A program made the translations under genes and the position numbers. Under the pieces are notes generated by a model. The model did not search any database. It was given only the letters and a program-made list of their open reading frames with translations, and had not been told where the DNA came from. A stretch of DNA of 64,000 nucleotides. Origin: Tetracentron sinense. Taxonomy: Eukaryota > Streptophyta > Magnoliopsida > Trochodendrales > Trochodendraceae. The stretch is from NCBI GenBank assembly GCA_015143295.1, contig CM026565.1, forward strand, positions 30,574,052 to 30,638,051. The letters are read 5' to 3'. This document shows positions 5,639 through 60,300 of this stretch, one piece after another (position 1 is the first letter of the stretch; every line of letters starts with the position of its first letter).

Positions 5639-6021
5639 TTAGCAGGTGGCACGTGCGATGTACATGAGAGCGAGGGGAAGGAGTTAACCACAGTTAATAG
5701 GAGTTAAAAGGGTCACGTGTTAACCCACGGGTGTGATTGAACTCTCCCCAAATTCAATAACGGGTGGCACGTGCGATGCACGTGGAAGCAAGGGGAAGGA
5801 GTTAACTACAGTTAATAGGAGTTAAAAGGGACACGTGTTAACCCACTGGTGCAATTGAACTCTCCTCGAGTTCAATCACGATTGGCTGTGATTCTATTCT
5901 TTAAATAGATAGATGAGCAAGAGGTAATCTGGGAATTAAAGCAAAACATTAAATCATATGGGTAGTTTGGGAATTCGGAAAAATCAAGCTCCGCCTGCCT
6001 CTCCCATTATAATAGTAAAGA
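5639..6021 (-). mobile_element. Non-autonomous Helitron with duplicated 3' terminus
   Basis: On the minus strand it runs from TCTTTACTATTATAATGGG (5' end, preceded by A) to a 3' end reading CCACCTGCTAA, followed by T. A second near-terminal block (GGGTGGCACGTGCGATGCAC on the plus strand at about 5762) lies inside, so the 3' region is present twice. The CACGTGC-NNN-GCACGTG hairpin just inside the 3' end is the expected Helitron signature. Confidence 0.7.
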
Positions 6022-18000: not shown

Positions 18001-21000
18001 TCACTTCTAATATATCAATTTATTCAGTTCTTGAGCCTACACCGTTCGAGCCGACACGAAGCTCAATATGGTATTGAGCTTATATCATGTAATTTACTTT
18101 ATGATTGTAGTTCAATATTTTCTTATTTAATTCATTGAATATAAAGTTTTAATATCTAGATTGTATTGTCAATACTTGACTAAGTGACTATTGTTTGTGT
18201 TATCATACATATTTATCAGCATGGTCGCCTTTTTTAACTTATAAATTTCTTAACTCTCATATGTATGGTTATAAATGTAGTTGGGGGCCTTCTTTTAGTT
18301 TGTTTTTAGCTTATATTTGCGTTAAAAGAAATTTTATATAACGTATCTAAGTTTTTCCTTACATATCCAAGTCTATCCTAATTTTTTCCTTCGTATTCAA
18401 CTGATACATATCCTATAATTGACTGACAAATATAGTACCCAATACCGATATTTTACACCATGCCTAGAAGGCACTCAAGCATAACTTTAGAGGTGACATT
18501 AGAGAATCAGATTGTTCCAGCACTAGAATGGCATTTAGAGATTTTTTTTAAAAGCAAGTAGTACGTACCACTATTTTTCCAAAATTCTAGTATAAGAAAT
18601 TCGGGTTTTCCTTTAATTTTTTGCAGGTCCACCAATTGTAAAAGAGAGCTTATCTCACCACAATAAGCTGAGCTTTCAGGGTGAATTCAGGCCTGGATCT
18701 TGCATCATTGATGAAATTAGGATATCTTGGTTTACCAGTGGGGCACATAGCACCTGAGAAGAAACTTTGTGGCTTATTAATTGGCTAGAGAGGGTCTGCT
18801 AAGAGGGTTATATGGGGTATTTAACCATCTCAATCTCCACACCTCTATTATCTCCTTGTTGATCCCAACAGTTCTCTTTAATAACATTGATCATGACCTA
18901 CGTCGACCACACAGATTCGCACTTCTTATTTCTTTGAGCATTAGATTCCATTCATTCGATATGAGTAAAGAAAGCTTCATTTCTAAATGGAAAAGTTCTG
19001 CTTCCATATCTTGAAGCCAATAAGTTTTCATATAGGGGGATGCAGCTTCCAACCATTTGTAGTATGTGCAAGTTGAAGAAGATGTAGATCATCTCCTCCT
19101 TCATTGTTCAGTGGCTTGGAACGTGTAGAGTTTTTGTCTCACTCTTCTAGATATCTGTAGTGTCTCAAAGTAGCAAATACAATTACAATTACAATTACAC
19201 AATGAATGAAAATATAAATAACTAATAAACAATACATATCGCCCATTTTGTATCAGTATAAATATTGTACATGGGGCTACCGAAACCTATACATATTTCC
19301 CGTTTCGTATCGTTTTCGGCGATTTTGATTTCCATGAGACGGGGGTATTCTGATTCTCTAGGATAAAGAGGTCATGGACATCTCCGAATCGGAGGTGGGG
19401 GCTTTCTCCCTCTCCATCCTTTGTAGGTCCCCAATAGATGGATTCTGATGGTTCTTCATGGGTGTGCATGGTTTGGTAGGTTATTCGTATCAGGTAGATT
19501 TTTTGGTAGAACTCAAGAATGTGAGTGCAAGTTGGAGTCTCCCTTGGTGTATTGGTGGGAATTTTAATAGTGTCGGATTTCCTATTGATAAATCTACAAG
19601 ATGCTTAAGTGTCTCAGAGATGAGAGCTTTCGAGAATTTTTTTTTCACCAGATTCTTCTTGAGTACCCCCTACATGGTGATAGATATACATGATCCAATT
19701 TTCAAGAATGCTTAGTAAACTAGATAGTTTCCTATCATGCAATCATTGGAATGATAAACTTCTAGAGGCAAAAGCAGTAGCTTTATCCAGGCCAACTTCA
19801 GATCACATCCAATTATGTTGGATTCATTAAAGGTTTAGGGGCATCCGCAGACAGTTTAAGTTCAAGAATGTGGTCGGGAGCACTCATGTTTTGTCAAGGA
19901 GGTTTGGATCCAATCATAATTTTGGGGCTCGCATTGGTCTGAAATTGAAAGGTCGCAAGGAGAGGCTTCAAATTTGGCACCGTGAGGTATTTGGGAATCT
20001 CTCCGATAATAAGAGGAATATTCTAGAAGAAATCAGTAGCCTGAATTCGAAGGAGGAAGTTGGTATGCTATCATATTCTGGTTCTAGGAGCCGAGATAAT
20101 TTGAAGAATGATTATTTTCATTTGTTGCAATGTGAAGAGATTAGTTGGAAACAAAAATCTCAAGTCAACTGGCTCAAATAAGATGGCCGTAAGTATTTCA
20201 TATAGTCACAAATTTCAGGAGAAAAGTCAAATCACATCTTGAAATTAAAGGTGGGAGATCTTTGTAAGGAGAGTGATAAGGAGATTCGGGAGGCTGCAGT
20301 GTCCTTCTATCAGCAGTTATATAAGGAAGATTGTTAGTACATGCCAAAATTGGACGACATGTAATTCAACTCTCTTTCATACGTTCAAACTTCAAAGAGA
20401 CCTGTTAGAGGGGCCATTTTCTTAACAAAATCATGAATGTTTTTAAGGGTACAGTGGAGATAAAGCTCCTAGGCCAGATGGCTTTTCGATTCAACTCTAT
20501 AAGAAACGAGACAAAGCTCCTAAGCCAGATGGCTTTTCGATTCAACTATATAAGAAACGTTGGAGCATTATCAGTCAAGATCTAAAATTTTCAAATCCGG
20601 CAGGTTTGACCGATGTTGAATACTACCTTTGTCGCCCTGATCACCAAGGTGGAAGGAGCTCAGAACATTAAGGACTTTAGACCGATTAGTCTTTTTGGAA
20701 GCATTTACAAAATTTTGTACAAAGTTTTGGCTTCACAAGTTTTGTGGAAGCCAGACACTCTTGTCCGCTAACCACTTAAAATGGTCATAAGTTCCATCAT
20801 TTCTCGGTGTGCCGAATTTTGTGTAAGACCATAGTTAACAAAATTCGCCAATTTTTTTTCAAAAAATTCGTGAATTATTCATGAATTTTCGGTGTGCCAA
20901 ATTAATCACGAATTTTAGGTTTGCCAAATTATTCGCAAATTATTCGTTTAGTTCAAAAAGTAAATTGCTTATTTTGTATATTATCTAATCAAATTGTTGG

Positions 21001-21596: not shown

Positions 21597-24500
21597 CAAT
21601 AAACTACTATGATTTCATGGCCTCAGCATAAATGGTAAGAAATTCTCAACTTCACACATAACTTAGAACATGGAAGGTATAAATGCAATAAGTTGGATGG
21701 CAAAGGCATTATCCGAATAAGCGAATGCATGGAAATTTTTTGTTCACTGGAAATGCTCTTTCCAGACTCTGTTTTAGAGGGGGGGAAACTGAATGCTACC
21801 ATTGAGGACTGATGGAACACATTCATCTCTTCATGTTGCAAGGCCTAATATTAACCCCATCTTAGAGGCTCACATTATATGAGAACTCAGACATGTGATG
21901 AGATGAACAAATAATGTTAAATTGGAAACCTAGAAAAAAAACAAAAAGTATGAGAACATGTTAAAATTGATGACTTGTAATAATGGATTATTCGACTGAA
22001 AAAATGTGACTCGTCATGATTACAAGAAAAACGAACAAATATTCATAATATATATAATTATTCTGATCAAGCATGTTTGGATTGAACAGAAAGACTTACG
22101 GGCGAACAACATATTTCGTTTTTCCTTCAGCATCTTGTCCTAATGGGGCCCTGCAATAACAAGAACATATCTAAGTGATGGATATAGTGGCAGAAACATT
22201 TCAAGCAATTCTGATCATACAAGTCTTCTTAGTTCTGAAAATGGGATGAGTTCTGGGAATTGCACAACAAACTCCTCACATAGAAACTATGGAAAATACC
22301 TTGTAAGAAGGCATGAAGCAATGTCAAGACCCAACTTGGCAGTGGGATCAAATGAGAACCTGCCATATTGTGAAAGAACAGTTGCATTGAAATTAATTTT
22401 AAAAAGTTCAGTAATGTACCAATGTGTAGAATAGATAATTCAAATTAAGGGATTACATTATGGCTAGCAAGGTCTATGTCTCTGTGATGGGAATCTATGG
22501 ACACCATGAAAATAAAACTATCCGGAACCGTTACGTAACGGACGTTAAGCAACGGTTTCACTAGAAGCCACCACAATACAATGGGCCCTTTTGATATAGC
22601 AAAAATGAGGAATCCTTTTTGATATGGCATTCAAAGAGGTTCTTAGGTGACAAATTTCTGATGTTCTTTTTGTAAAGTAATGCTGTGACATGACTTGCCT
22701 TTTCATTTGACTCAAACAGTCATTATGTTGTGGAAAAACTCAGCCAACTGATGGCACTTTTTTACCTTGCCAAGTAGATTTATCTTTTGAGTTTTGACAT
22801 GGTAGTGCTTAAATATGACCCGACTTGGTTGTCACAAATTTGCAAGTTTTTTCACACAATGGATATTGGGTATAAATAATCGAAGCAAGAGGATAACCTG
22901 AATAACTTAGTGTTGTGGCTGACCCTTGCAGTGTCTTGCAGCTCAAATTCAACCCACTTATCTGGATTGAGTGCTGAAAATTGAAACAAAAGCATCCACT
23001 GTTATGATGTATAAGAAACGGTGAGAATGATATAGTAAGCACTTCAAGGCTTTCAGCTTCATATTTTACTATGCAAATACTTCTAAATCCAGTTGGTAAA
23101 TCAACCTCCTGAAGACAGCAATAAGTAACTCAACCAATTTGACTTAAGAGAACCCAGGCTGTGACCCTTTATCATTATTTCGAGTTTAAAATTCTGTTCA
23201 AATTTTTGCATTGTAAAGAAAAAGGGAAAAAAAACTGGAAGAAAAACCTACCAATTTTTCGGCCCTCTTCTTCATTGATTTGATCTAGATGAGCCTGTAA
23301 TCAGAAGGCATAATCACCTCAATTATTTAACATTTTATCAGTTTCAGAAAATATATAGGTTAGTTGCCATGAAAAAGTATATCTTAGTTGCATTGGCTTT
23401 AGAGCAGAAAGTGCAAACAGGTGTCTAAACCTCTCACATTCAAGGTTCATAACATTATACTCAACAATATTTTGACACAATATGAAGTGTTCAGTAGACC
23501 AAAAAACAACTTCCATCATTCAGAAAATAACAATGAAGACACAAAAATCTGATTAACCCAAAGGCTTCATAATTTGAATGCACAAACCAAAATTTAATAT
23601 GATGCACAAGCCAAAATTTAATCTGGTAATGAAAAAAGAATGATTTAGCAAAAAAATAAAGAAAAAAAGGTGAAAGGGGGGAAAGAGATCACTGGAACGA
23701 CATAAGTTTCAAAATGAAATAAAGCTATAACTCTTGAAACCAGATTTCCAATCCATAAGAGCATTTATGGAGGTCAGGAAAACAATGGCACCAGCATCCT
23801 TGGAGAAACATAACTAATAGACAATTAAACAACAACGGAAATTCATTTTCCATCTTAAAATGACTTCTCTTCCAATAAATCATTTTTCACACTATATTGA
23901 TTAAAAATATATATATAGACTAAACTACCTAAGTCATTGTATATGTTGTAAAATAGCGACCTTTGGGAAGTCTCACACATAGAAGTGCATGGAAACAACC
24001 ATAAAACGAGGTGTAGTTGGTCACCATAAAAAATGATTATTAAAATAACAAAGACTCTTATAATCTACAAAAAAATAAGAGATTTAGATCCGAAAGTTCG
24101 ATTATGAACCGAGGAAGGTGTTAGGCACCCTGATTCACTAGTCTATGAAAAATACGGTTACCAAGACCTTCCTCATTCCATGTCCCACACCTCTTATTCT
24201 TTCTCACATTCTCCTCTTAAGTAGGCATTTCTAGCCACCATAGTTACCAAGTACGAGTACTGTTGAATAAGGCCTTAATGGGCTGGGCTTTATCTTTATG
24301 TTTTCTACTTACTCTTGTACACTGTTTTTGGGTATATTATTAGTATCTCTTATGTACTAATAGTATACCATTAGTGGAGTATAAATATAAAGAGTAGGAG
24401 AGAAAGAATTAATTTCTCTCACTAATTTTTCCTAAACCTATTCTTCTCTTTCTCTTATTCTTCTTCTTCTTCCCTCTCTCAAACCCTAATCTCTAAAACC

Positions 24501-27500
24501 CTAGTTTCAAACCATAATACTCATTCAAACTAATCCAACTTGGTATCAGAGCCTAAGGGGAGAACCAGGAATTTTTCTGCACAAAAGGGACCACCACGGA
24601 TGTGCTGACATCAACAGCTGTCAGAGTTTTTTGGCCGGTGAGTTTTTGTTATGCCACTTGATAGATTGGCATTTATAGAGATTTGTAGTGATTTTTCTGA
24701 GATTTTTTGGAATTTCGAGATGTATTTTTTCGGAGATTTTCAGAAAAATTCAAGAAAAAAAAGTTTCTAAACCAGTGAATGGTGCGACTGATTCAGATTT
24801 TTTTGAGAGTGCAAATTGGTATTGTTTGGTCTGTATTAAAATTGCGGAGTGTATGAAACTCGTTTCATAGTGATCGGATTAGTATTGAAGTGTCGGCGAG
24901 CAATTTTTTCCCTCATATTTCACGGTTTTTTACTGTTCATGGAAAAAAAATTGTCAAAAAAAAATTTATGCACATGCTGGAATCTTTTTTTAGTTGCCCA
25001 ATTGGTTCTCGATTACTATTGTTGATGTTTTGTTCACTCCTATCAATATAAGGGAGTGAATAGAGCATGTGGAACCTTACCTTTGGTATGTTCTTTAGGG
25101 ATTCGAGAATTTGGAGGTCACTTTTTGAGGTTAGATTGGTGTAAGTCATTTTTTGAGGTTAGATTTGTGTAAATTGACCCTTGAGTAATATGACAGATGA
25201 ATCCAAGGTTAGTGAGTCCTCGAGTATCCCTGTGCAGGGTCGAGGAAGTATTAGAGTTAGTGCAGGTGATGCACCAAACCTCCAAATTACCACTGTGAAA
25301 CTAGATGGGACTAATTTTCTGGAGTGGTCTCAGTTTGCTACATTGTTTGTTAAGGGCAAGGGAAAGATGGGTTATTTGAATGGTGTCATTTCCACTCCCA
25401 AGTCCACAGATCCAGCCTATGCCAAGTGGGAGGCTAAGAATTTCATTGTAATGTCATGGCTTCTCCACTCTATGCAGTCAGATATCAGTAGTACTTACTT
25501 ATTTCTTCCTTCCGTGCATGATATATGGGATGCTGTGACAAAGACCTATTCTGAGATTGGAGGTGCTACCTGGGTTTATGAGTTACGTCAAAGTATTTGG
25601 CAACTAAAATAAGGGGATATATCTATTCCCACGTACTATTCCACTCTTTGTCGTCTCTGGGAAGAGCTGAACCATTATCAGACCTTCAAGGCTAAGTGTT
25701 CCGAAGATGCAGCTGAGTATAAGAAATTAGTTGAACAGGAACCGCGTATTTGAGTTACTTGTCGGGCTGAATATGGATTATGAACAGGTACGGGTTTAGA
25801 TTCTTGGCAAAGATCCAATCTCACCTCCCACTGAGGTCTATGCCTACTTACATCGTGAGGAACGCCGTCGGAGTGCTATGCTCCAACTTCCTACACATAA
25901 TAGATCTGCATTAGCCTCCTCATTCTAGAAGCGAGGCAAGAGTGGTGGTGGTCGTAGTGGCTGAGGAGGTGGTCGTTTTGGACCCTCCGGTTCTTCTACG
26001 GAAGATTGGGATAAACTTAAGTATGATCACTATGGGCGTACCCGTCATACGAGAGATACTTGTTGGGACTTACATGGTTACCCTTCTCCATGAGGCCCTT
26101 TTGGCAGTGGACGAGGAGACAGAGAGACTATTTGGAGGAAATTCGAGTGCACACTCTGTTACCTCCACAGCTTTGGTACCTACTGTTGCACCTCTTTTGG
26201 ATAGTCCTGGTTTATCTAGAGATGAGATCGATGCCTTCTATCGATTTATGTCACAGTTGGAGACTCCTAGTACCACCAGTGTCGCTTTCGTCCCTTACTC
26301 AAGTACCTCAGTCTCGGCTCTCAATGCATCTGTTTCTGATCCTAGTAGCTCTTGGATTATTGATTCGGTAGCATCTGATCATATGACTGGTATGTCCTCC
26401 TTTTTTTCATCTTACTTCATCGATTCTGGTAGAATTAAAGTTAAAATTATTGATGGTACATAATCATCCATTGCAGGTAAAGGGAGTGTTTCTGTCACAC
26501 TCTCTATGTCCCTCTCCTCTATCCTTCACATTCCTAAGTTCACTTTGAATCTTCTATCTGTCAGTCATATTACCAAAACTTTGAATTGTAGCATCACTTT
26601 TTTTCCTTTTGCCATAAGGAGCGAGGATTATATCTGCTAGACCCTTTGTCTTGCATTGCTTCATCAAATACCTCATGGTTTTTGGAGTATTAGTAGCACA
26701 GAGGAGTTGTTCCGGGCCCCGACACATTAGTCATCCCTCTGATTCCCTTCTTAGGCGTTTATTTATGCATTTATCTGTTTCAAGTTTGCTTTCCTTTTTC
26801 AATGTGAAACTTGTGAATTTTCGAAACATTATCGAACTTCATATCCTTATAGCAGTAATAAATGCAATTCCCCTTTTTCTCTTCTGCATTCTGATGTGTG
26901 GGGACCATCTCATGTTCCTTCGTCGAGTGGTTTTAAGTATTTTGTTACATTTGTGGATGACTTTTCTCGTACTACATAGGTGTATATGCTAAAATCTAAG
27001 GGTGAAGTTAACACTGTTTTTATTTCTTTTCATATTATGATTGTCACTCAGCTTAATGCCTCGATTAAAGTACTTCATTCAGACAATGGGGGTGAGTATA
27101 TATGTCTACTAGTTTGACTGTTTTTTTTTTATTCTCATGGTATCATTCATCATCAGACTTCTTATGCCGCCACACCTCAACAAAATGGTGTGGTTAAGCG
27201 AAAAAACCGACATCTGTTAGAAGTCACTCGTTCTCTTATGCTTGCCATGAATGTGCCTAAACTTTTTTGGTCTGATGTCGTATTGGCTGCTACATTCTTA
27301 AGCAATCGAATGTCTTCCCAGATTTTGGAATTTCAATCCCTATGTTTCTTTGTTATCTCCTTCCACTCCTTTGTTTCCAATGGTCCCACGGATCTTTGGT
27401 TATATCTGCTTTATGCATATTGCTCATTCTGATCGTACAAAGCTCGATCCTAAGTCCCTTCGCTGTATCTTTCTTGGGTATGCTCCTCATCAAAAGGGAT

Positions 27501-30500
27501 ATAAATGCTATCATCCCCCTTCCCGTCAGTCCTTCATTTCTATGGATATTACATTTTTTGAGTCTACTTATTTTTCTGCCAGAAAGACATCTCTTCAGAG
27601 GGGCACAACAGTGAAGAGATATTCTCTCTTCCTACTCCTATTTTCTCTACTGACAGCGATTGTAGATAGGGAGAGTGTGAACCCGTTGTCAAAGAATTGC
27701 AAGTACACAAGAGAAGGCAGAAAGATCCTCATGAGCTCCACCAAGAAACCTCTTCTGATCCAGATAACATTGTTCACTCTAGTCCTAACATTGTTGACTC
27801 TGAGATTCTTATTGCTCTTAGGAAAGGTATTAGAGCATGTCATCAGCATCCTATTTCGAATGTTGTCTCTTACCATGCTTTGCCTTCTTCATATCGCTCT
27901 TTTGCCTTGGCTTTGTCTTCTATGTCTGTCCCTCGTAGTTTAGCAGATGCACTGTATCAAGCAGAATGGAAACAGGCTATGGAAGAAGAGATGTGTGCGC
28001 TTGAAAAAATACCTTGGATATGGTCAACTTACCAAAAGGAAAGAGGTCAGTTGGATGTAGGTGGATGTTTACAGTGAAACACCGCTCGTATGGCTCAATT
28101 GAGAGATACAAAGCTCGCTTGGTTGCAAAGAGGTATACTCAAACTTACGGTATAGACTATCAGGAGACATTTACCCCAATTGCAAAAATAAACTCAGTAA
28201 GAGTCCTCTTTTCACTTGCTACCAATCAGGATTGACCCCTGTTTCAGCTTGATGTAAAGAATGCATTTCTCCATGGTGATTTAGAGGAAGAGGTGTATAT
28301 GTTATCTCCTCCTGATTTCAAATGCCCCTCAGATGAAGAGAAGGTGTTTAAGCTAAAGAAGACATTATATGGACTAAAGCAGTCTCCTAGAGCATGGTTT
28401 GAGCGGTTTCGCAATACGATGGTGAAGAATGGTTACAAACAAAGTCAAGCAGACCACACATTGTTCCTCAAGTGGTCTCGTTATGTGGATGACATTGTGG
28501 TAATAGATGATGATATAGATGAGATAGAGTCACTGAAGGGCAAGTTAGCAAAGGAATTTGAGATCAAAGATCTTGGTCTTCTAAAGTATTTCCTAGGGAT
28601 TGAAGTTGTCAGGTCTAAGAAGGGCGAATTTATCTCTCAGCGCAAGTATGTACTTGACCTATTTGAGGAGATAGGCATGATGGGTTGTAAGTAATGTGAT
28701 ACACCCATAAATCCTAATCATAAACTCAGCGAAGCTAGTGGGGAATATCTGTCAGATGTTGAGAGGTACCACAAGCTTGTTGACAGGCTTATATATTTGT
28801 CCCTAACTAGGCCAGGCATTGCTTATGCAGTCAATGCAATCAACCAATTCATGCATTCACTAACTATTGGTCATCTGAATACAGTAAATTGAATTCTCCA
28901 CTACTTAAAGTCAGCTCCTGGGAAAGGCTTGTTGTATACCTATAATAGAAACTTGAGGGTTAAAGCCTAAACCGATGCAGATTGGGCTGGCTCCATTTCC
29001 GATAGACGCTCGGTATTTCACTATAGTTGAAGGTAATCTTGTCACATGGAGAAGTAAGAAACAGAATGTGGTTGCTAGATCAAATGTAGAGGCAAAGTTT
29101 AGACTTATGGCACACAGGGTGTATGAACCATGGTTCAAAAACCCGAAAATTCGACTCGACTCGAAAGTTAACCGGGTTAAGTAACTCGAAAAGCTCGAAA
29201 AAAACTCGACTCGGTTTAACTCGGAATATATATGTCATAACTTGAAAAAACTGGGTTAAAACAACTCAAAGTACACTAATTTTACAGCCTCAAACTTAAA
29301 AAGTAGGATTAATAGAACACATAGAAGGTTGTTTTTATGGACCTAAAACATATGATGCAAAAACAATGTGACATTCGAGTTTAGGTTTTAAAAAATGATA
29401 AAAATACTCTTTTGTGACTCGACCTAGTCTGGCGAGTCGAAAAACTCGGCTTGACTCGTCCGAGTCACTCGAGTAACTCGGCAAATAGTGTCTTCTTCGA
29501 GTTTTGAGGTGACTCGACTCGAAATTCAGTCGAGTCGAGTAACTCAGCCGAGTTACTCGGATGACTCGACGAGTTTTCGAACTATGGTATGAACTGCTCT
29601 GGCTTCAATTGCTCCTGAGTGAGATTGAACTGCCTATTGAAGGTCCTATGAACTAATATTGTGATAATAAAGCAGCTATTAGTATTGCTCACAATCCTGT
29701 GCAGCGTGATCGAACCAAGCATATTGAGGTAGATCGTTATTTCATCAGGGAGAAATTGAAGGCAGGTTACATTTGCACCTTGTTTGTGAAGTCAGAAGAT
29801 CAATTGGCTGATGTGTTGACTAAGGGTCTTGGTGGTACTCAGTTTCGAAATATTGTTGACAAGTTAGGCATGATTAATATCTACACACCAACTTGAGGAA
29901 GAGTGTTGAATAAGGCTTTAATGGGCTGGGCTTTATCTTTATGTTTTCTACTTACTCTTGTACACAGTATTTTGGGTATACTATTAGCAATAGAGACAAT
30001 TAATCTACTCTCACTAATTTTCCCTAAACCTATTCTTCTCTTTCTCTTCTTCTTCCTCTTTCCTCTCTCAAACCCTAATCTCTAAAACCCTAGTTTCAAA
30101 CCCTAATACTCATTCAAACTAATGCAACTAGTACAAGTATAATACAACAATGATCCTTTCAGGAATTATGGGTATTATGCGGGCAAAAACAAGGCAAAAA
30201 TATGGGAAAATTAAAAAGATAATTAATACTTATAAATAAATAGGAATCATGAAACTAACTAATAACAATCATTTAATACGGAATATGCATTTAACACGGC
30301 AACAATTTGTGTATTAAACTTGTATCATACAGCGATACGCGTATTACGTAGTAGGACAGAAGTACACAGTTTTAAACGGCGACCCTCCTAAACGTATCAT
30401 ATGCATATAATACAGGAATTTGGTAACTATGCTAGCCACTTTTGGCCATCCCCAAAATGCCCCTTCCAAAAGATAATATTTAATTTTTCAATAAGAGAAA

Positions 30501-32403
30501 TATAGTGAGAGTTTTGGTGATTTTAGCTATACCAAACCCAAGAAGCTCCACCTTGATAGTAAAATCACCTACTTGCATTGTCAAACCCTATCCTCACCTT
30601 ACCTTGAAAGTTGAAACTAAGAGAAGTTGAAGTCCTTTTAAAATTCCCTCCCAAACTGGTCTTGTGAGCATACTTGCATAACTATTCATTATATGCACCT
30701 TCTGTAGGCGCTAACACCCGACTAGGTAACTGACTACACAATCTCCACATATTGGCCACCAACAACCTTTTTAGCCTGCTAGCATGACCTACTTCAACTT
30801 TCTTACATGGAAGTATTTGAAGTTCATTTGCTTCCTTGCATGCATTAGTAGCAATAACACTAACTAAAGTACTTTTTGATAGCTTGTACAAGTTCCCTAC
30901 CTAAACACCCTTTATGATCACTAATGCACCTTTTGAAATTTTCATAAGTCCAACTTGCCCAATGAACCTTTAACCATCAAAATTCAATTTGGGAAGTGAA
31001 ATAAGACAGGTACATGCCTAACATTTCAAGTAATTCAAGTACTCTTATCGTTCCATCGAACATTCTTAGGCGCACCGAACAAACACCAACCGCTTTACTA
31101 GTTGAGTTGTTCTCATCAACACCACACCGCCCTCACATTCTTCATATGAGATAAACATGACCTATGTGAGCACATGTGATGAGTTGCACCACTATCAAGT
31201 ACCCAATTTTGATGGAAACTAAGATTACAATCTAGTAAACTCTTTCTCTGTAGCTCTCTTTGATTAATATATGCTTGTCTTTATTGATCAAAAAAAAATT
31301 TTGATAGAAACTGAGACTTTTACCTATGACATACACTTCATTTTCAATGAAGCCTGACATTACTTCTTAAACTTCATTCGCTTCATTTATGGAACCAGTA
31401 ACTTCCTTACCTTTATCGCTATCGGAGCCTTTACCAAACTCAACCATTTCATTTTTCAACGATCTGTTTTGAAATGTCCGGTTTTACCACACAACCAACA
31501 TATACCATTGCCATTTGGTCCCCTTGATTTACTTCTAGTTCTAAGATACCCCTAAGATGAACTTCCCTTCCCCTTCAATTAACCTTGCATTGAGAAAGCA
31601 TTGGTCTTTCCCGAACTACCCAAAGAGCAAAGACAAACTTCTTCAGAGTTCATCGGCAAGCAACACACTACTTAGACTTTCCAAGATAAGAGTGCCCCCA
31701 TTGGCATAGTTTAAAGATATGACCAAACCAGTGTTTTAAAAGGCGTGTGAGGCTTACGCCTTAAGGCTCGCCTCGAGGTGAGGCGTAAGGAAAATGCCTT
31801 GAGGCTTAACCATGAGGCTTAATCTCATAAGGCTTACGTCTCGAAGTGGGAAACTAACATGAGGAACACACCTCATGCCTTGAGGCTCGCTTTATGTCTA
31901 TAGGGTACACATCATACATTTACTAAAATTAAGGTTCTAACCACATATCTGAGACTTAAACATTGTTTTTTTTTTCAAACATGTTATTTGTTTCAATTGA
32001 TAACAAATAACACTTTATTTATTTCAGATAAAACATTAAAAATGATGATGATATTAGTTTCAGTTAACACTTAATTTATTATGTTTAATGTATTTAAGCT
32101 TTTAAAATTCTTTGAGTCTAATTCATACTAATTTTCCTACTAGACATTACAAACATTTGAAGCCACTGGCCTACAATGTAGTTCATGACTTCTTCGCAAA
32201 TTTTTGCTAAAATTCTAAATCTACCACATGAATTGATAATTGAACATTATATTCAATATGTATATGAACAAAAAAATAAATTTAAATTTCAGCATTTGTT
32301 TGCCCTTATATTTATTTTTTTAATAGTTAAATAATTTGTATAGTATTTTCTACGTGTAAACACGCGCACACATGTATGCATATACAAATATATATATATA
32401 GAT

Positions 32404-32442
<39 letters not shown>

Positions 32443-34496
32443 CTATTCTTTCATTAACTTTTTAAATATTTTTGTATTTCTCGTATATTTTATTTATTTC
32501 TTAAAATGTTGTGAGGCTTAAGCCTCACACCTTTAGGTTTACGCCTCACACATCTTGAGGTCCTAACGCCTCGCCTCACGCTTTCGCGTTTTAAACATTG
32601 GACCAAATTGTCATAAAATTTTGAAAAAGTACAAATAAGTGTAATGCACTCCATCATTCTTAAAGAATACAACTTCTTTAAGAAAATACGATTTTTCAAA
32701 GACTTCGTTATGTAGACTATCCACCCTTAACCACAAGCCCATGGCCTTCTTCTCGCCTATTATGTTAAACAAAACCTCATCGACTAAGCACAAACGAATT
32801 GTAGATAGAGCATTCAAGTGAAGATCTTCCCATACATCTTTTGTTATGGCTACCGCCTACCGGTTTACTTTACAATGCCTTATGCCAACCTTATTGTACA
32901 AGCAAGTCATCAAACTTTTATTTCCAAAACTCAAAACTCTTGGTCCCATTGAATCTGTCCATCTTAAAAAAATTAACCGTTATCTTTTCTACTCCTATAT
33001 TCTCACAAACAAATTGTCAAACACCATATGCACCAACCTTGCACACCAACCAGAATACTCTAGCCAACAATTTATCAAACACTTTATACACCAACCATGA
33101 AACTCGGATACTAGTTGTAGGGAATGAAGCTCACCCCTATAGGTCCGGTTGTCAGAAATCAAATACCCTAAACTACAATTATGTTGATTCTGGAACCCAT
33201 GAAAATACCCAATGATCATGTGCAATTAAAGAGAAGGAAATATGGAGAAAAAAGTAAACTAAAGACACAACATAATACATAGTTCACCCACAATGGGGCT
33301 GTCCACGAAAATCCCAACACTCATTGTTCTATTCGGAAAACTCTTCACCTAACTCTACCAAGAACTGCAAAATGATTAAGCGCAATCTCTTCACCTAACT
33401 GTACCAAGAACTACGCAACACTCGTTGCTTTACTGGCAGCCCTGCCTTCACACCGTTGTCACAAACCCGAACCAACATCATGATGGCACCCCCAATAACA
33501 AAAAAAAAAAACCGTCTTTTCAAAAAATCGTGAATTCTTCACAAATTTTTGGACTGCTGAACTATTCGCCATTTAATTTGCCAATTTTTTGATTCGCGAA
33601 TTTCCCAAATTTTGCAAATAATTCGTTTTTAAACTATTTATTTTGTATGTTCTTTAGTTAAATTGTTTTTTTTTTTTGTGGTCGAAAAGATAATATATTC
33701 ATTTAGAAACTCCCAGATGACAATGTAAATTCCCCAGAAGACCTCTGAACAGGAATAACAAGAGCACTGACTGTATTCGTAAGGGAGCTAATGCTCATCC
33801 TCAAGGCTCTCCGCGCCTCCATATGAGCATCACAGTTGATAGATCTGGGTGTTTGGTATATTTTTATAATCATTAAATTATTTTTTAATTTTCCCAAATT
33901 TTTCCAAACTTGAGCCTTGCCGAATTATTCCCGAACCCTGACATTGTCACTATGATGGCACCTCCTAATGCACCTTATCTCTAATTTCACACCTCTTATT
34001 CTCTCTCATTATCCCTTCAAGTAGGCATTTCTGGCCACTCTTGGCCACACCCAAATCTTGGTAATTTTAGCTATCATTAAACCCAACATCTACTCTAAAC
34101 TACCAACCTAACCACATTTCTGTCAAATTCGAATCAGCCCATTCCATCAGAGACCATTGGCGTCATCGCAAACAAACCAATCCTCCAAGTAATCCAAATT
34201 CCTTGCTGCTATCCACTCCAGATTCCCAAATGAAGATAACATTACCCAAAAAACAAAAATTTAAATCGACCCATTTCATATACGATCAGATCAAATAGAA
34301 CTCAAATGAAAGCAGAATAAGAAATTACCATATCCGGCGAACAAAAGTAGTAGTAATATGAAATCCCACCAGAAATAGCAGCAATTGCTCCAAAGGGAGT
34401 TCGGAAACTGCTGAAACTGGACTTAGTTTGATCTCTGAATGCATTGGTGAATGCAATTGGAGCAGCTTTTGCAAGTTTTCTGAAGAACATAGCCAT
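9014..34496 (-). CDS. CBR2: NADH-cytochrome b5 reductase, mitochondrial type (complete, 13 exons)
   Basis: This FAD enzyme passes electrons from NADH to cytochrome b5 and is mitochondrial in plants. Coding exons in order: 34496-34329, 23294-23252, 22973-22898, 22359-22300, 22150-22100, 13651-13597, 13460-13390, 13312-13261, 10622-10545, 10147-10058, 9963-9850, 9240-9172, 9070-9014. All joins are GT/AG and phase-consistent, giving 984 nt (327 aa); known plant CBR2 is about 328 aa. The N-terminus ([13 protein letters not shown]) is basic with a hydrophobic anchor at about residues 35-52 ([10 protein letters not shown]...YYYYF). The FAD motif is RPYTPIS at 132-138. The nucleotide-binding loop is GGTGITPM at 195-202, CGPPGM at 288-293 includes the conserved cysteine, and the C-terminus is VYKF. 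No key residue is missing. Introns 1, 5 and 8 are inflated by transposons. Confidence 0.95.
10760..10950 (+). pseudogene. Copia reverse-transcriptase fragment in CBR2 intron 8
   Basis: Conceptual reading gives IERYK, LVAK and [14 protein letters not shown], the signature of the N-terminal part of a Copia reverse transcriptase (family pattern [11 protein letters not shown]...DYxETF). Frame breaks occur between these blocks. No LTRs are recognisable nearby, so it is a short antisense relic within the host intron. Confidence 0.65.
11040..11215. repeat. About 90 bp GC-rich tandem duplication
   Basis: The block CCGGGATTTTAACTCTTAAC ... CCCCCTACACCTCTTC occurs at about 11080-11133 and again at 11157-11205, both followed by CGAAAGGG. 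It is GC-richer than the surrounding intron. Confidence 0.6.
11467..11850. repeat. Minisatellite, four 96 bp units
   Basis: Units begin at 11467, 11563, 11659 and 11755 with CTGATARAGCCRCC and end at 11850, exactly 4 x 96 bp. The first three are nearly identical; the fourth carries several substitutions. Because 96 is divisible by three, a minus-strand reading frame stays open across units, but this is a by-product of the period. Confidence 0.9.
11851..13260. other. Remainder of CBR2 intron 8
   Basis: I see no gene, RNA or defined repeat. The stretch from about 11030 to 12240 is GC-richer and lacks the local transposon vocabulary; beyond 12240 it is ordinary AT-rich intron. Confidence 0.35.
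14871..16532 (+). mobile_element. Solo LTR, 1662 bp, inside hAT-like element B
   Basis: The segment begins TGTGCGATAGC and ends GGGTGTCTACA. ATCTA precedes it at 14866-14870. The matching 3' ATCTA sits at 17517-17521, because element A later inserted within that duplication. The interior contains GAGTCGCCACC and GGAAGGTGTTAGGCACCCC, motifs seen in LTR-retrotransposon ends of many plants. There are no internal coding domains or second LTR, so recombination between LTRs is the likely origin. Confidence 0.65.
16536..17511. mobile_element. hAT-like element A, 976 bp
   Basis: It runs from CATGATTCAAAATATCGG to CGATATTTTAAACCATG with a perfect 8 bp duplication CTACAATC at 16528-16535 and 17512-17519. 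The subterminal regions are dense in CGTATCG/CCGATAC motifs. No transposase is readable, so it is non-autonomous. It is the youngest layer of the intron 5 nest. Confidence 0.85.
18640..19140 (+). pseudogene. LINE 3' coding remnant with zinc-finger (zf-RVT-like) end
   Basis: Fragments read in shifting frames end with PTICSMCKL followed by IIS/LLLHC-like and VQW/AWN-like residues near 19045-19125. This matches the C-x2-C...H-x3-4-C reverse-transcriptase-associated zinc-binding domain of plant L1-type LINEs. Multiple stops show it is dead. It lies in CBR2 intron 5 in antisense. Confidence 0.5.
19440..20770 (+). pseudogene. LINE remnant: endonuclease to reverse-transcriptase start
   Basis: Near 19525-19640 the reading [15 protein letters not shown] corresponds to the GDFN motif of apurinic-type LINE endonucleases. 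A spacer at 19870-20181 ([17 protein letters not shown]) is typical of plant L1 elements. Near 20640-20720 the residues [16 protein letters not shown] correspond to the reverse-transcriptase start (family pattern IPK...DFRPISL). Stops separate the parts. A 51 bp tandem duplication (20458-20508 repeated at 20509-20559, containing CCAGATGGCTTTTCGATTC) lies before the transcriptase block. Confidence 0.7.
20820..22097. other. Repeat remnant and microsatellite in CBR2 intron 5
   Basis: A tract starting CCATAGTTAACAAAATTCG at about 20830 continues with AATTCGTGAATT and ATTCGCAAATTATTCG, and is related to a tract at 33515-33930. Its right end is not identifiable. A compound (TC)n/(AC)n microsatellite occupies about 21537-21594. 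I see nothing gene-like. Confidence 0.4.
25190..29880 (+). pseudogene. Copia gag-pol pseudogene
   Basis: Domains appear in Copia order. Gag starts at ATG 25190 and is open to a stop at 25612. A degraded protease site reads DSVASDH near 26360. Integrase shows HSDVWGP at about 26890, HSDNGGEY at about 27078 and [13 protein letters not shown] at about 27178, where the catalytic Glu is Lys. Reverse transcriptase shows [11 protein letters not shown] at about 28155 and YVDDIVV at about 28483. The RNase H region ([13 protein letters not shown] near 28975) precedes a 458 bp insertion, and [13 protein letters not shown] follows at about 29720. Many stops and shifts plus the altered integrase residue show it cannot move by itself. 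Confidence 0.9.
29129..29586. mobile_element. hAT-like element D inside the Copia RNase H region
   Basis: The ends CATGGTTCAAAAAC and GTTTTCGAACTATG are inverted repeats, and a perfect 8 bp duplication GTATGAAC lies at 29121-29128 and 29587-29594. The interior is built of GACTCG/CGAGT blocks. It interrupts the Copia RNase H reading, so it is younger than the Copia insertion. Confidence 0.88.
30640..33240 (-). pseudogene. Second Copia remnant (gag, zinc knuckle, protease)
   Basis: Read on the minus strand, a gag block ([15 protein letters not shown]...[10 protein letters not shown]) lies at 32817-32640. After an inserted element come a zinc knuckle [13 protein letters not shown] near 31490 and a protease motif [12 protein letters not shown] near 31200. 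[11 protein letters not shown] block near 30800 resembles the pre-integrase region. Frames are broken throughout, and no integrase core or reverse transcriptase is seen. It has the same orientation as CBR2 and fills intron 1. Confidence 0.75.
31729..32600. mobile_element. hAT-like element E inside the Copia remnant
   Basis: It begins CAGTGTTTTAAAAGGCG and ends CGCGTTTTAAACATTG. Flanks are GACCAAAC at 31721-31728 and GACCAAAT at 32601-32608 (7 of 8 match). Subterminal blocks repeat GAGGCTTACGCC/GGCTTAAGCC, and the middle holds a (TC)n(TA)n microsatellite near 32403-32441. It splits the gag segment of the Copia remnant. Confidence 0.78.
33662..33860 (-). pseudogene. LINE 3' tail with poly(A)
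   Basis: On the minus strand [15 protein letters not shown] resembles the C-terminal N-x-x-AH-x-x-A end of LINE-associated RNase H domains. A stop, a short untranslated stretch and a run of A (T-run at about 33667-33677) follow. It sits inside an older AATTCG-rich repeat (33515-33930) in CBR2 intron 1. Confidence 0.5.
33940..34100. repeat. Possible LTR fragment paired with 24170-24238/30432-30560
   Basis: CACACCTCTTATTCT, then AAGTAGGCATTTCT and GGCCACTCTTGGCCA, then ATTTTAGCTAT occur here. The same blocks occur at 24188-24238, continuing at 30432-30540 once element C is removed. These two sites bracket the minus-strand Copia remnant, so they may be its LTRs. Confidence 0.4.
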
Positions 34497-36180: not shown

Positions 36181-36636
36181 TCTTTACTATTATAATGGGA
36201 GAGGCAGGCGTAGATGATTTTTCCAAAATTCACATACTACCCTTATATAAAAACAAAATTTTGATTTAATGTTTTGCTTCAAAACCCAAACTACCCATTG
36301 CCTTTGATTTAATTTCCAAACTACCCCTTGCTCATCTATCTATTTAGAATCACATCCAATCGTGATTGAACTCGGGAGAGTTCAATCGCACCTGTGGGTT
36401 AACACGTGTCCCTTTTAACTCCTATTAACTGTGGTTAACTCCTTCCCCTCGCTCTCACGTGCATCACACGTGCCACTAGCGAGTTCAATCGCACCAGCAG
36501 GTTAACACGTGTCTCACACGTGCCACTAGCGAGTTCAATCGCACCAGCAGGTTAACACGTGTCCCTTTTAACTCCTATTAACTGTGGTTAACTCCTTCCC
36601 CTCGCTCTCACGTGCATCGCACGTACCACCTGCTAG
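36181..36636 (+). mobile_element. Non-autonomous Helitron, 456 bp, with repeated 3' ends
   Basis: The 5' end TCTTTACTATTATAATGGGA follows an A and the 3' end CCACCTGCTAG precedes a T. Eleven bases inside the 3' end lies the hairpin sequence CACGTGCATCGCACGT. Upstream, CACGTGCCACTAGCGAG occurs twice (about 36469-36485 and 36516-36532), marking two earlier 3' termini. The interior holds paired TTAACTGTGGTTAA and ACACGTGT motifs. There is no Rep/helicase coding. Confidence 0.85.
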
Positions 36637-42054: not shown

Positions 42055-42743
42055 GTGTGCTCGTGGGTTGATTCCTCATGAATCGGGTGTGTGTGTGTCC
42101 TTTGGGTCATTTGCCTACTGGCTTGCCTTATGTTAAGTTAGTCTACCAAAAAAATCTTTAGTCCCACCTCGGGCAGGTATGATAGTGTACTCGTCCTCAT
42201 AAGGTTCCATAGCCACTCTTACAGTTGGTACCCGTTTTAGAGTGTGCTCGTGGGTTGATTCCTCATGAGTCGGGTGTGTGTGTGAGTCTATGTGTGTGTG
42301 TGTCCTTCAGGTCACTTGCCTTGTGGTAAGTTAGTCTACCAAAAAACCTTTAGTCCCATCTCGGGTAGGTACAATAGTGTACTCGTCCTAATAAGGTTCC
42401 AAAGTCACTCTTACGGTTGGTACCTGTTTTAGAGTGTGTTCATGGGTTGATTCCTCATGAGTCGGGTGTGTGTGTGTGAGTTCATTTGTGTGTGTCTCCT
42501 TCAGGTCATTTGCCTACTGGCTTGCCTTGTGGTAAGTTAGTCTACCAAAAAAAACCTTTAGTCCCACCTCGGGCAGGTATGATAGTGTACTCGTCCTCAT
42601 AAGGTTCCATAACCACTCTTACGGTTGGTACCCGTTTTAGAGTGTGCTCGTGGGTTGATTCCTCATGATTCGGGTGTGTGTGTGTCCTTCGGGTCGTTTG
42701 CCTACTGGCTTGCCTTGTGGTAAGTTAGTCTACCAAAAAAAAA
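42055..42743. repeat. Tandem repeat of about 190-205 bp, four copies (last partial)
   Basis: Units begin with GTGTGCTCGTGGGTTGATTC at about 42055, 42243, 42435 and 42643. Each contains CGGGTGTGTGTGTG, GGCTTGCCTT, TTAGTCCCACCTCGGG and CTCTTACGGTTGGTACC. The (GT)n part differs in length between copies. It lies inside the MULE. Confidence 0.85.
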
Positions 42744-44819: not shown

Positions 44820-46999
44820 TTAAAATAATAAAATTTTAAACTTACCAAACACCATGTGACTATGTTGTGGAGTTAGTGATGTAGTTGCAACTTTTACCTT
44901 TTTTCTTTTCTTCTTTTCCAATTGACTTTTTATTCTAGCATTGGTTATCCATTTCTTTCTCACATGTGGTGGATCAAAAATTGTTCTATCACCAACTAAG
45001 CAATGTTCCCTATCATCACCATTTTTGGGATCTTCTTGGAGATCTTTTTTACCAACATCTTCCATTATACCAATGGCTGCCATGTCCTTCTCAACTAGTT
45101 GTAATATCTCTTTTAGCTTATCTTTGACAATTTTGGTCCCACTAATACTCAATGAAGCCTTATCAAAAATATTATATCCCAATTGACTTAACTCGCTTAT
45201 GCGCATAGCACGAGTAGATTTCTCATTTAGTTGACATAAATCAAGTAAGCAAGACAACCATTTATTTGCATCTTTTGTCCATCTACTTAATATATATTTG
45301 TCAGGAATTATGTTCACATTATTCACAAGAAGCACCCTTAAAGTATGGTGACATAACAATCTCAATGTTTCAAACAACTTGTAACTACAATAAACAATCA
45401 AATTTGATTGGTCAAACTGCACAGTAAGTGCCCTTTTATTCCCATACTTAGTTAGTAAATAAGTAGAATTATTCTCATAATGATTGGTCTCAACACAACT
45501 CAATCCCAAAACATGCACTCAACTCTTCTTCAAACATTCTAAACAAAACAAGAGTATAAACACTAGCAACATGACTCAAGATACCTCCATACCTGGTAAC
45601 TTTTGTAGGTGCACCATTCTCGAAAATCTTCATTCAATTCATCTTGACGCATTTGTGATGCCTTTTCCTCATAAAATTGAATAACTTGGATAAGTGGCAT
45701 AGATGTTCGCATGATTTAATGGAAAACACTATTTGTACTCTCACTCATTTGGGTAGATTTCATCGTTGCTGAGAAAAAATCCACACTGAAAGTTGTAGAC
45801 CACTTTTCTTGAACCTTATATAGCCTACTAAGCCATTGATGATTTTGCAAATTATGTTTTTCAACCATATCATTCCAAGTTGACTCAAACTCTGACTCAT
45901 TTATGCACCCATTTAAACATTTATTGAATCTCCAATGGAAATCAAGATTACTATAGAGTCTAGCAAGGTGTAGTTTAACATTTTTACTAATATGCCATAA
46001 GCAAAGTCGATGACGAGACTTCGGAAACACCAACTTAATAGCATTTGTCATTGCTTAGTCTTGATCCGTAAAAATGCATTTTGGTCGTCGAACTCCCATA
46101 GCTGTCAAAGAAGTCTCAAACAACCAAATAAATGATTCAAATGTCTCATCTATTAAAAATGCACACCCGAGCAAAACATTATTCCAATGATGATTGATCC
46201 CCACAAACAGTGCACAAATTAATTGTATCCATTGGTTCAATAAGTGGTGTCACAGACAACAACATCCCCAAAATAGTCATAATCTAATTTTTCTCTACCA
46301 TCTCTCCAAAAGAAATTTGTCATTCTATTATCTTGGTCTACTTGCATTGAATAGAAAAACATGGGATCATCGCTTTACTTTTGTTTGAAATGATTATATT
46401 ACACTTTGTCCATCCTCAGCTTCAATCATTTCTTTTCTAATAGTACGCAAGTAGTTGTGACAATCTCGCTTAGTGAATCCAGTACAATTGACACCACCAA
46501 CTTCCTTTGATAAATATGAATACGATTGTGTTGCTTTAATGCCCGCACTAACCATTGTGCCAATTTTACTCCCTTGTGTACTTAATACCTTTCTTCCAGA
46601 TCTCAAGTTACACATTTGTTCCACAATTACAAATTGATGATTGTGTGCATAATTGAAATGAGAAACTGTCCAAACATCATTGTTGACATCAAATCGAATT
46701 CTAGCAAAACAACCTGTTCTTGTATCTAAGTGATTTAACTTTTTCATATTACTAGAGTCTTCAAACTCTTTAAACCCTTGTTTTGAACACACAAATTCTC
46801 TCTGCCTAAGAACACCATCAATCACTCGTATTTTTCCTTTTCGAATGCTAAACCCTTTCCTTAAAGCAAATTCATTGTAAATGTTATAAGCTTCTTCTTT
46901 GGAACTCACTTGCATTCTAAACTTGATTTATTCATCATTGTTAACAACACCTTTATCAACTTCCTCAACCTCATTTGGTACACTTCGTGAAAAATCCAT
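44820..46999 (-). pseudogene. FAR1/MULE transposase pseudogene
   Basis: From the start at 46999 the frame stops after about 24 codons. A FAR1 DNA-binding domain then reads EEAYNIYNEFALRKGFSIRK at about 46900 through an AHNH block. Next is the MULE core: TDQDQAMTNAIKLVFP and HRLCLWHISKN at about 46060-45985. A SWIM-like zinc finger follows near 45400 (YCSYKLFETLRLLCHHTLRVL), where the second cysteine of the expected CxC is Tyr. A 45 kb-side C-terminal tail is basic (KKKRKKVK). Stops and frameshifts separate the blocks, so the protein is dead. Confidence 0.88.
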
Positions 47000-56169: not shown

Positions 56170-57370
56170 GATAACTAAAAAAAATTGAAATCTACGTGTG
56201 GGGTTATCACTCCTCTCAATAGGCTAATTGAGTAATCTCTCCAACAGTAATATGAAAAAGAATGAGAAGAAGGATGATTCCGGGTATTGCATTTATTTAG
56301 TTATTTGCATCAGTTAAGTGTTTAGTGGCGGATAGTGAAACTCTTGCATGACATCACCTATTTGGGATTAAGATCCCGCCACCAGGACACACCTACCATA
56401 TAGTAGTGCATTTTTGGTTCCTAAGTGGGGATAATTTTTTAATTTATTTTTTTTGTTGTTGGGAGGGGTTTTGTTATTATTATACTTATTCACTATTAAA
56501 TTTTGGGTAGGTGGGATGGAAGAGATTTACAGTAGCTAATAGAGATAAAGACAGTTAAAATGATATTTTTTTTCTACAGCAATTTGAGGGGGGTCACTCT
56601 TTGTCTCTTTCAACTGCAACCCTTATCATTTCACCTCAAAGACTCCACATTTATCAAAGAAGGATAAGGTGAAACAAGGTAAGAAATTTATGTCTTTTAT
56701 GGTTTTTTTCCTTAGATTATATCTATTTATTGTTGAATGGTAGACAGTAATGACATGGCAAGGTGTAATAGAAAGACAAGCATGTAGATTCCTTTCTCAT
56801 TCCATGATTGGTGCATCTGTTTGTGATAAATGCATATAAAAAACCATCGAAACTTGGAGGATGATGTCTTTTGTATTTGCTTTCTGCAATCTTACATGGC
56901 TGAGTAAAATTTGATATTGATATTGGGTTCTTGTTTGTTTAATGCTCAGTTTTGGTTTTGGGATGAAATTTAGAGAAAACCATTTACTCCACTGATTTTA
57001 GAGATGAAAAATAAAAAATTTCAGTTTTTAGATGTGGGTTTTGGTTTTTAGGTGATGAAGTTTAGGAACCTTGTTAAAGTTTACTGGTTTAGAGGAGGGT
57101 TTGGGTTTTAGGAGCTCAAATCTCGAAAACCCATGAAGGTGTGCTATTTTTGTGAGGTGGGTTTTTAGATTATCAAAGGCAGGAAAAAAAAGACCATGAC
57201 AATTCAGTAGTGTCAAAAGGGGATACAAGATAGAGATCCAGTGGGAATTCACAAGTTTCCAGGTGTGGGTTTTAATTACAAGGAGCTGAAGGAGGCCTCT
57301 TTACTGGGTTTTGAGTTCTAGGCAAACAATACAGATTTTCTACCTTCAGAGGTAGGCTTTGGTATCAGGG
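56170..57370 (+). promoter_or_regulatory. Upstream region and 5' leader of the racemase-family gene
   Basis: A candidate untranslated first exon ends at AACAAG/GTAAGAAA near 56680. A candidate acceptor GGTATCAG lies two bases before the ATG at 57371. This would make a roughly 690 bp leader intron. It is inference from splice-like motifs only. Confidence 0.3.
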
Positions 57371-60300
57371 ATGTTTGATGGAAGCATGAGAATGTCTTTC
57401 CAGGCATTGAATTGCCAATCGCATCTCGTAGGTAACATAAATAAGCATAAGACACAGTTTAAACTTTGGTCATATCCAGCTCTAGCTGTACAACCCTCTT
57501 CAATTCTCTTACACACAGATGAGAGTGGTAATCTACCTGAATCTAAGAAGTGTTCTAGTTCCAAAACAGTTCCGAGAAGCACTAGTTCCCTGCTCAACCA
57601 AGCGAATACGGTGGGTGTCATAGGAGGGGTATCAGTTGTTTCTACTCTGAATTTCTTGGAAAAGCTCGTCCGGTGGAGCTCAAAAGATGGAGAGGAGTGC
57701 CTTCCATTTGTTGTCTGCTGTGATCCGATGTTAAACAAGGAGATTTCATCTCGCGAAAGAAGTTTGTTTCCCTACCTCAAAAGAAAAAGTGCTTGTTCCA
57801 AACTGGATCATACTCCAATTGTGGAGAATTTGAGGTGTAAAAGGGCCTTCCTTGAGAACTCAGGAGCTCGTTGCATAGTTATGCCTTGTCATATATCACA
57901 TGCTTGGCATGGTGAGATCTCTGAGGACTGTTCTGTTCCCTTCCTTCATGTGGGTGAGTGTGTTGCCAGGGAGCTCAAGGAAGCAAAGTTGAAGCCACTT
58001 GAAGCTGGGAGTAATTTACGGATTGGGGTGCTTTCCACTGATGCGACTTTAACCGCAGGTTCTTATCAGGAGCAACTACAGAGTCAGGTATTTCAATCCG
58101 TGACTCATATCTGTTTACAGTTCAGATTGTATGGTATTCGAAATCTTGTTAGGAAGAGCTCTAGAGTACTTAAATTAGCAGATGTATTGTTGCATATCAG
58201 AAAAAAATAGAATATATTTGTTCGTGGTAATTTCTTCTTACAATCGTGTAAAAGCCATGAAGTGTTCGTCATTATCATCAGCTTCAGTTGGTCCATCCAC
58301 TGAGCCTCAGTTTACCTGCAAAAAGAATTGATGCACTGTTTATTGGCAGTCAATTTGAATCCTGTTTCACAAACTTTCTTGGGGTTTAGAGGACAAAAAT
58401 GATGCACTTTACCGAAATACTTTGACTGCTTCAAGTGGAATTCAGTGGGAGTCATGGCCCATGGGACCTTGCATGAGAAAGCAGCAGATTCAGGTGTATG
58501 ACATTGACACCAACGAACCATTTATATAAATAATTTCATCGTATTTAAATATTCTTCTTCTTATTTCGTCACTTATTTTATAAATTCTTTTGAAACTTAG
58601 GATATCTATAACAGAATATGACATAAACTTGATGAAGTATAAAATTGATCAAATGATGGTAGATCTAGTTGGGAGGCATTGGACAGAGAAGTTCATAGTG
58701 CATGAGTGAAAATATGGGTAGTAAATTCCTACTATTGAGGTAGAGATTTTAAGCTGGTACCAGCTTTCAATATATTCACCACAAACATCCTAACTTTTAT
58801 GTATCTTAGCGACTTATTCAATTATTATAATATTTTTCACGTGGGTAGATCTTAAGTGTGCTAGTCTTTCATACAAAGACTTGATTACCCGCCCTCAAGG
58901 AATTTCTGACTGACAGTGATCCTCTACTGTCCCACCAAGGGTCAGGACAACCTGATCTCGTGGTCCTGTTTCATCCTCCAGAAAAATCTATTGTCTTTAT
59001 ACACAAAGGATATAGAGGTCAGAACCTGTAGAACAGATCCCATTCAAGTAAAGATACTTAGGTTCATATCTCCTTTGTTCAGTTGTTCTACCATAAATAC
59101 TGTGTTTGCTTATAAAATGATATTGAATAATCTGTTTTCATTATTAATAATTCTAATTTGCCCATAAAATTTAAAGAAACTAAAAATGTTTAGTTCATTA
59201 AAAGACAAAACTAAGTAGTAAATTAAAATATTAGAGCGAAAAATGGCTGTGTTGTACTTGAAACATGGAATAGGTAGTTGGTTGTATTAGCAATAAAAGA
59301 AAGTGAGGTTGGTTCATGATCTATTTCTTTCTCAGACTTTTGTTTAGTTTCAGCTTATTTCTAATTAACTGCCAGTTAACAAATAATGAATTGGAAATAT
59401 GAGAGGGCTGAAGAACAAAGGTTGCAGGATATTGTGATAAGGCTATATGATTTGATAATTGAACCTTGTGCTCCTTTATAACATTGTTAAGATTCTCAGA
59501 TTTTCATTTCATATTCCAAATGATAGAATGTCATAGAAAATGATTGATCATTCAACTTGAATTGTATTCGAAAATAATAATATATGAAGTATGTGACTTA
59601 ATAGAAGCCAGAACGACATGGAGTTCAACAGTAGCTGTTGGTTTGGTTAGTTTTAACTTTTAACTTCCTGCTGAATGGGGATGGAATAGGATCCAGGTAT
59701 TATTATGTTCCTTTTGGACCTTTCAACTCTGAACCACCGGCATACCAAAATTCTCAAGTCATACTATTTTTAGGAGTTGCATCACCCTACATAGGAACTT
59801 TTTTTTTGTCCAGCCATATTACAATCTTAAGATATATGAATTTTGAGAACGTTAACTACATGATGCGAAGGAATCTCCTTCACACGAGATTCCTTCGCCT
59901 AAGTTCCTCATAGGTTATATGATGGAAGATGCAGGGCTGTGTGGGGTGCCACAGCCCAGTGGAGAAAAAGAGTCCTATATGATGATCTCACATAGTTACA
60001 TGTATTACTTTTACAGCATCAAGTGTCCTTGTAGCTATCGAAACAATATCTGAATGGGAGACTTTCCAAGCTTATCTCTATTGTACAATGGAACTCTACT
60101 GTAGTTCTCCCTTCCCACTTATTAATAAAGCCTTTTATTTATCAAGTCAAACAAGAAAGATCATGTCCTTGAGTCTAAACCTCTAAAACATCAAAGTAAA
60201 ATAATGCACCTGAGTACATTGATGCGTCAGATATAATCAAGGTTTGAAATCCCGAACTTGTCGGTGATTTCGGTCCTTCAATCCAAACCGAAATCCCAAA

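Follow-up and report, generated by a model that had tools for sequence, protein, structure and literature searches.

The window analysed here is a stretch of 64,000 nucleotides of Tetracentron sinense DNA (C15:30574052-30638051), which carries on its minus strand an NADH-cytochrome b5 reductase-like (CBR2-like) gene whose first intron, with GT/AG ends, hosts most of the features in Table 1. With the Arabidopsis CBR2 protein as query, collinear exon matches run from 34487 down to 9017, alongside a few chance matches, and the stretch 23295-34328 corresponds to exactly one intron, exon 1 ending at 34328 and exon 2 starting after the CAG at 23295. The sequence-only reading had placed a transposon nest in CBR2 intron 1, and both the single GT/AG intron and the collinear exons bear this out. 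It had also claimed that the gene reads through with intact splice sites; the splice sites are indeed intact in the sequence, and the gene, which appears to keep its coding exons, would read through the nest. The genome searched was the plant's own (1,161,278,568 bases, 1.16 Gb, in 1479 contigs), where a peptide of 134 aa from the first exons finds its best match at this locus (E 5.4e-29). Of the 8 matches that this peptide search gave, 5 are here; the other 3, at different places, stand at 38-42% with E values over 0.1. It revealed neither a second good CBR2 copy nor a gene-level empty site for intron 1. A search of the plasmid collection gave no match.

Table 1. Features of the window: the host gene, the elements nested in its first intron and two open frames outside it.
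Feature	Position	Strand	Remarks
Exon 1, coding part, CBR2-like gene	34329-34494	-	Splice junction and CBR2 protein match
Intron 1, CBR2-like gene	23295-34328	-	11,034 bp; donor ATG/GTAATT, acceptor CAG/GC
Layer 1, old retrotransposon remnant, probably Copia	24147-34089	-	LTR pair; pieces of gag, zinc knuckle and protease region
Layer 2, hAT-type element C	24239-30431	+	In old left LTR; 319 bp without Copia; duplication and inverted ends
Layer 3, plus-strand Copia	24261-30129	+	Inside C; LTR pair, AGTAC duplication, Pfam domains
Layer 4, hAT-type MITE D	29129-29586	+	458 bp; in plus-strand Copia, downstream of reverse transcriptase
hAT-type element E	31729-32600	+	872 bp; in gag region of old element; duplication, inverted ends
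hAT-type element F	33491-33954	+	464 bp including G; duplication; genome relatives
G, 5'-truncated LINE-like end	about 33669-33849	-	Inside F; poly-A read as poly-T at left
Open frame with FAR1 DNA-binding domain	46397-46915	-	E 2.3e-18
Open frame with Asp/Glu racemase domain	57359-58207	+	E 4.3e-15

Intron 1 is read here as a nest of seven elements, which contribute ~10 kb of its 11 kb: an old remnant that houses C, E and F, with the plus-strand Copia inside C, D inside that Copia, and G inside F. The deepest branch has four layers, from the old minus-strand remnant, probably Copia, through C and the plus-strand Copia to D. All of these layers, together with a separate insertion of E, had already been recognized in the sequence-only reading, which overlooked F and G.

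The right (5') LTR of the old element is taken to end at 34089, a boundary placed by eye, and the left end lies somewhere within 24147-24186. The LTR core pair (24186-24238 versus 33988-34038) is 85% identical over 53 nt (E 5e-9). A Pfam scan of four stop-free pieces, with E values up to 10 considered, found Pol_BBD above the cut-off (E 9.1e-7) and, below it, zf-CCHC (0.0016) and the copia-type Retrotran_gag_2 (E 0.12), and the element is probably a Copia. Neither integrase nor reverse transcriptase was seen by eye in its translations and, with the Pfam scan covering those four pieces, a truncated element is one reading of the remnant. No clear target duplication was found around it by eye. 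The claim that an old Copia fills the intron thus holds for the presence of the remnant and, with probability, for its class, but not for its extent, as the intron continues for ~850 bp to the left of it and for 239 bp to the right.

That C landed in a possible LTR of this old element had been proposed too, and C very probably did so, because the left copy, 74 nt past the end of C, resumes its match to the right LTR over 28 nt. The score of this match, 40, was reached by 0 of 2000 shuffles, although 18 of 5000 random window stretches did reach it, a set that can include the LTRs themselves. The opposing interpretation, in which the left-hand block is an independent repeat, the old element has no LTR there and C landed in unrelated intron sequence, can appeal to the shortness of the shared 53-nt block, to the gap before the match resumes, and to the distal parts of the LTRs, where the alignment is no better than chance (1911 of 2000 shuffles as good), with F removed or not. 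Likewise, when the right LTR part, together with its flank, was used to search the genome, these two places alone came up, and thus no further relatives of the old LTR. However, besides the resumed match, the left and right blocks share their orientation and enclose retrotransposon coding pieces, and we hold the independent-repeat interpretation to be quite unlikely.

Inside the left LTR, element C is bounded by an exact 8/8 duplication (CTAGCCAC, 24231-24238 and 30432-30439), and its inverted ends match at 12/12 positions. The C family was followed in the plant's own genome through the best 40 matches, scored from 1859 first-look candidates; here, as for the other elements, the relatives fetched are the best-scoring loci of each search and no random sample. 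In all seven C relatives the left end runs directly into the body of C, with no Copia between. At the aligned ends, two of them carry 8/8 duplications, two more 7/8 (L026 being one, its right end located by motif) and one 6/8; L025 and L029 carry none there, and reach 7/8 and 5/8, respectively, when the ends are slipped by up to 3 nt.

The plus-strand Copia that interrupts C shows LTRs at 24261-24540 and 29904-30129 and an AGTAC duplication at 24256-24260 and 30130-30134. This exact duplication, together with the seven Copia-free C relatives, upholds the earlier claim that the Copia split C. Its open frames are interrupted by stops, and still two RVT_2 matches (E 6.6e-40 and 6.8e-19) and one to Retrotran_gag_3 (2.5e-11) lie above the cut-off, with a piece of rve (integrase) upstream of the reverse transcriptase below it (E 0.004). 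In the three relatives fetched, the matching LTR starts with TGTTGAA after a purine-rich tract. With its paired LTRs, 5-bp duplication and Copia-type gag and reverse transcriptase, the element reads as a Ty1/Copia LTR retrotransposon. Between the two LTRs there are 13 differences over 224 aligned sites, besides gaps, of which the main one is the lack of ~50 nt of the first LTR in the second; judged by LTR matches, these nucleotides are largely present in the relatives L039-L041, and their absence here is probably a later deletion.

The innermost element of this branch, D, is flanked by an exact 8/8 duplication (GTATGAAC, 29121-29128 and 29587-29594) and has terminal inverted repeats matched at 10 of 12 positions. 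It had been described as an insertion into the RNase H region of the Copia, of which the exact duplication and the position downstream of the reverse transcriptase stand, but the Copia piece after D (29657-29893) matched no RNase H model; we take the site to be the RNase H region because it follows the reverse transcriptase, and on the basis of motifs. A search with the target of D (best 40 matches scored of 656 candidates) provided seven Copia relatives, all of them lacking D at this point, one (L036) over a shorter stretch. The D family itself, in the best 40 matches scored of 3081 first-look candidates, is 96-98% identical to the query besides the window copy. The seven relatives fetched all have an 8/8 duplication, and all eight copies, the window copy included, measure 458 bp. 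Four of the seven relatives (L002-L008, compared with window positions 29129-29586) are identical to each other over the 458 bp, and the D family was therefore active very recently; it looks very young. The D-family duplications begin with GT in seven of the eight copies examined, and the family may have a target preference. Compared with the majority of the seven relatives, the window copy differs at 8 of 458 sites, every change being C>T or G>A, six in CHH, one in CHG and one in CG contexts. A methylation footprint in D was considered and rejected for want of CG or CHG enrichment (6/8 changes in CHH versus 103/183 cytosines).

Two further branches start from the old element. Element E separately split its gag, as the sequence-only reading had stated, with an imperfect duplication (GACCAAAC / GACCAAAT, 7/8). 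Of its seven relatives, drawn from the best 40 matches scored of 3552 first-look candidates, five carry 7-8/8 duplications where their ends align, and L019 and L021 carry none there; slipping the ends by up to 3 nt gives these two 5/8 and 7/8, respectively. Element F sits either in the distal portion of the old right LTR or in the leader next to it, between exact copies (8/8) of ATGGCACC at 33483-33490 and 33955-33962; its left end (CCCAATAAC) and the complement of its right end (CATAGTGAC) agree weakly. Among the best 40 matches scored of 2140 candidates, F itself is the only full-length one, and in many relatives F positions 1-177 and 360-464 are adjacent. The four relatives fetched (L046-L049) are all uninterrupted at this point, and the segment at about 33669-33849 is therefore a further insert, G. 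The same four fix the left end of F and show duplications of 7-8/8, with their ends picked from the permitted motifs by the best-scoring duplication, a choice biased toward a match. A weaker relative of F (starting with CATAGTTAAC) occurs at 20830-20941, in a later CBR2 intron, where no duplication was found; it failed to fix the left end of F, its best ungapped match being one base off.

In the case of G, the edges are marked by a short repeat, TGTTT (5 nt), on both sides, partly within the T run. In all three G relatives fetched, the element extends further in the 5' direction, past the point at which G breaks off, and the sequence upstream of the G end in the two relatives scanned, L045 not among them, matches RVT_3 above the cut-off (E 5.8e-7 and 4.7e-11). 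RVT_3 is a reverse transcriptase-like (RNase H) domain, and plant LINEs carry one near their end. In the F/G stretch of the window itself, Pfam found nothing.

The order old element, C, plus-strand Copia and D, as originally read, is supported because target duplications, divergence and those relatives of the host elements that lack the insert at other places in the genome agree on it, and the duplications of C, the Copia and D were all found again exactly. Insert-free relatives are available for three inserts, namely D, the plus-strand Copia and G; these relatives, together with the boundaries and duplications, fix the order within each branch, and the branches of C, E and F stay unordered relative to one another. 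As a control for chance, 192,288 CA...TG pairs lying 200-7000 nt apart in intron 1 were examined, and an exact outside 8-mer was found in 8 of them, versus 2.9 expected from 4^-8. At least 10/12 terminal inverted-repeat matches occur in just two of these 8, namely C with 12/12 and D with 10/12; the remaining six have 3-6 of 12. This control leaves out E, whose duplication is 7/8, F, whose left end is not CA, and the 5-bp duplication of the Copia.

The exact duplications also bear on whether part of the nest could be an assembly artefact, with repeats misjoined inside intron 1. High-copy repeats such as D, C, E and F (3081, 1859, 3552 and 2140 first-look candidates) are trouble spots for assembly; however, D, C, the Copia and F each sit between two exact copies of a duplication, a pattern not expected from a misjoin, and the window sits within a 40-Mb contig, making such an artefact extremely improbable. 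We consider it very likely that independent insertions into one intron built the nested cluster.

The divergence of the elements offers a rough time scale for these insertions. The distance between the LTRs of the plus-strand Copia (K2P 0.061 over 224 columns), at 6.5e-9 to 1.3e-8 substitutions per site and year, gives an age of 2.3-4.7 My, and that of D would be 1.4-2.7 My. A later arrival of D than of the plus-strand Copia fits this divergence, with date ranges that are rough and overlap.

Copy-and-paste insertion of retrotransposons and in-trans cut-and-paste movement of hAT elements are standard mechanisms, and the most likely pathway for the nest would start with an old retrotransposon, probably Copia, inserting in the direction of the gene. 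The cut-and-paste, non-autonomous hAT-type elements C, E and F would then have landed in the LTRs and gag region of this old element. C in turn would have received a Copia of the opposite direction and F a LINE-like fragment, and the MITE D would have landed in that Copia. The assignment of C, D, E and F to the hAT type comes from their 8-bp duplications and termini, and all four would have been mobilised in trans by hAT transposases. The gene would tolerate the nest since the whole intron is spliced out, probably with the help of heterochromatin-masking machinery of the IBM2/EDM2 type (PMC4417168). In Arabidopsis, IBM2 and EDM2 help to mask intronic heterochromatic transposons, and reduced CHG methylation accompanies downstream transcription defects, according to the same source (PMC4417168). 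The introns handled in this way resemble the present one in being filled with transposons within an apparently working gene, here as read from the sequence alone.

A last question is whether the nest may be more than debris, that is, a heterochromatic intron conditioning the expression of the only CBR2 copy. In its favour, the genome search revealed no second good CBR2 match, and in Arabidopsis the transcripts of host genes are affected by long, methylated transposons in their introns (PMC4417168). However, the eight C>T or G>A changes of D show no enrichment in CG or CHG contexts, and we deem this role unlikely. The bolder proposal, that the nest is a heterochromatin-dependent intron tuning the only CBR2 copy and that the D family is still jumping, such that D-bearing and D-free alleles may segregate today, seems quite unlikely.

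Independent insertion, the preferred explanation, has parallels in other nested transposons of plant genomes (e.g. PMC3903597), which likewise consist of elements within elements; here, one intron holds seven elements of different kinds, namely Copia, hAT-type and LINE-like ones and an old remnant, and as far as can be told the difference lies in particulars only. As regards D, the closest likeness is to BniHAT-1 and BniHAT-2 of Brassica nigra, high-copy hAT MITEs of 673 and 666 bp (PMC7385995), which are also short and AT-rich, with terminal inverted repeats, 8-bp duplications and high copy numbers; D, with its 458 bp, is smaller, and the likeness is one of build. Transposon nests of this kind are ordinary in large plant genomes and the general view remains unchanged, yet the layers of the present one give a clean and testable record of how a plant genome grows, and it points to high-copy hAT-type families, among which D looks very young.

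Other repeats were observed elsewhere in the window. A plus-strand stretch at 19300-20760, in a later CBR2 intron, resembles by eye a decayed LINE reverse transcriptase, and the three pieces of it scanned with Pfam gave no reverse transcriptase match. The gene is flanked on both sides by tandem repeats (36361-36610 and 5645-5880), with periods of 50 at 36456 and 118 at 5645, which look related by eye, being of the GTTAACACGTGTC type on opposite strands. Finally, a tandem array with 3.5 copies of a 192-bp unit spans 42055-42741.
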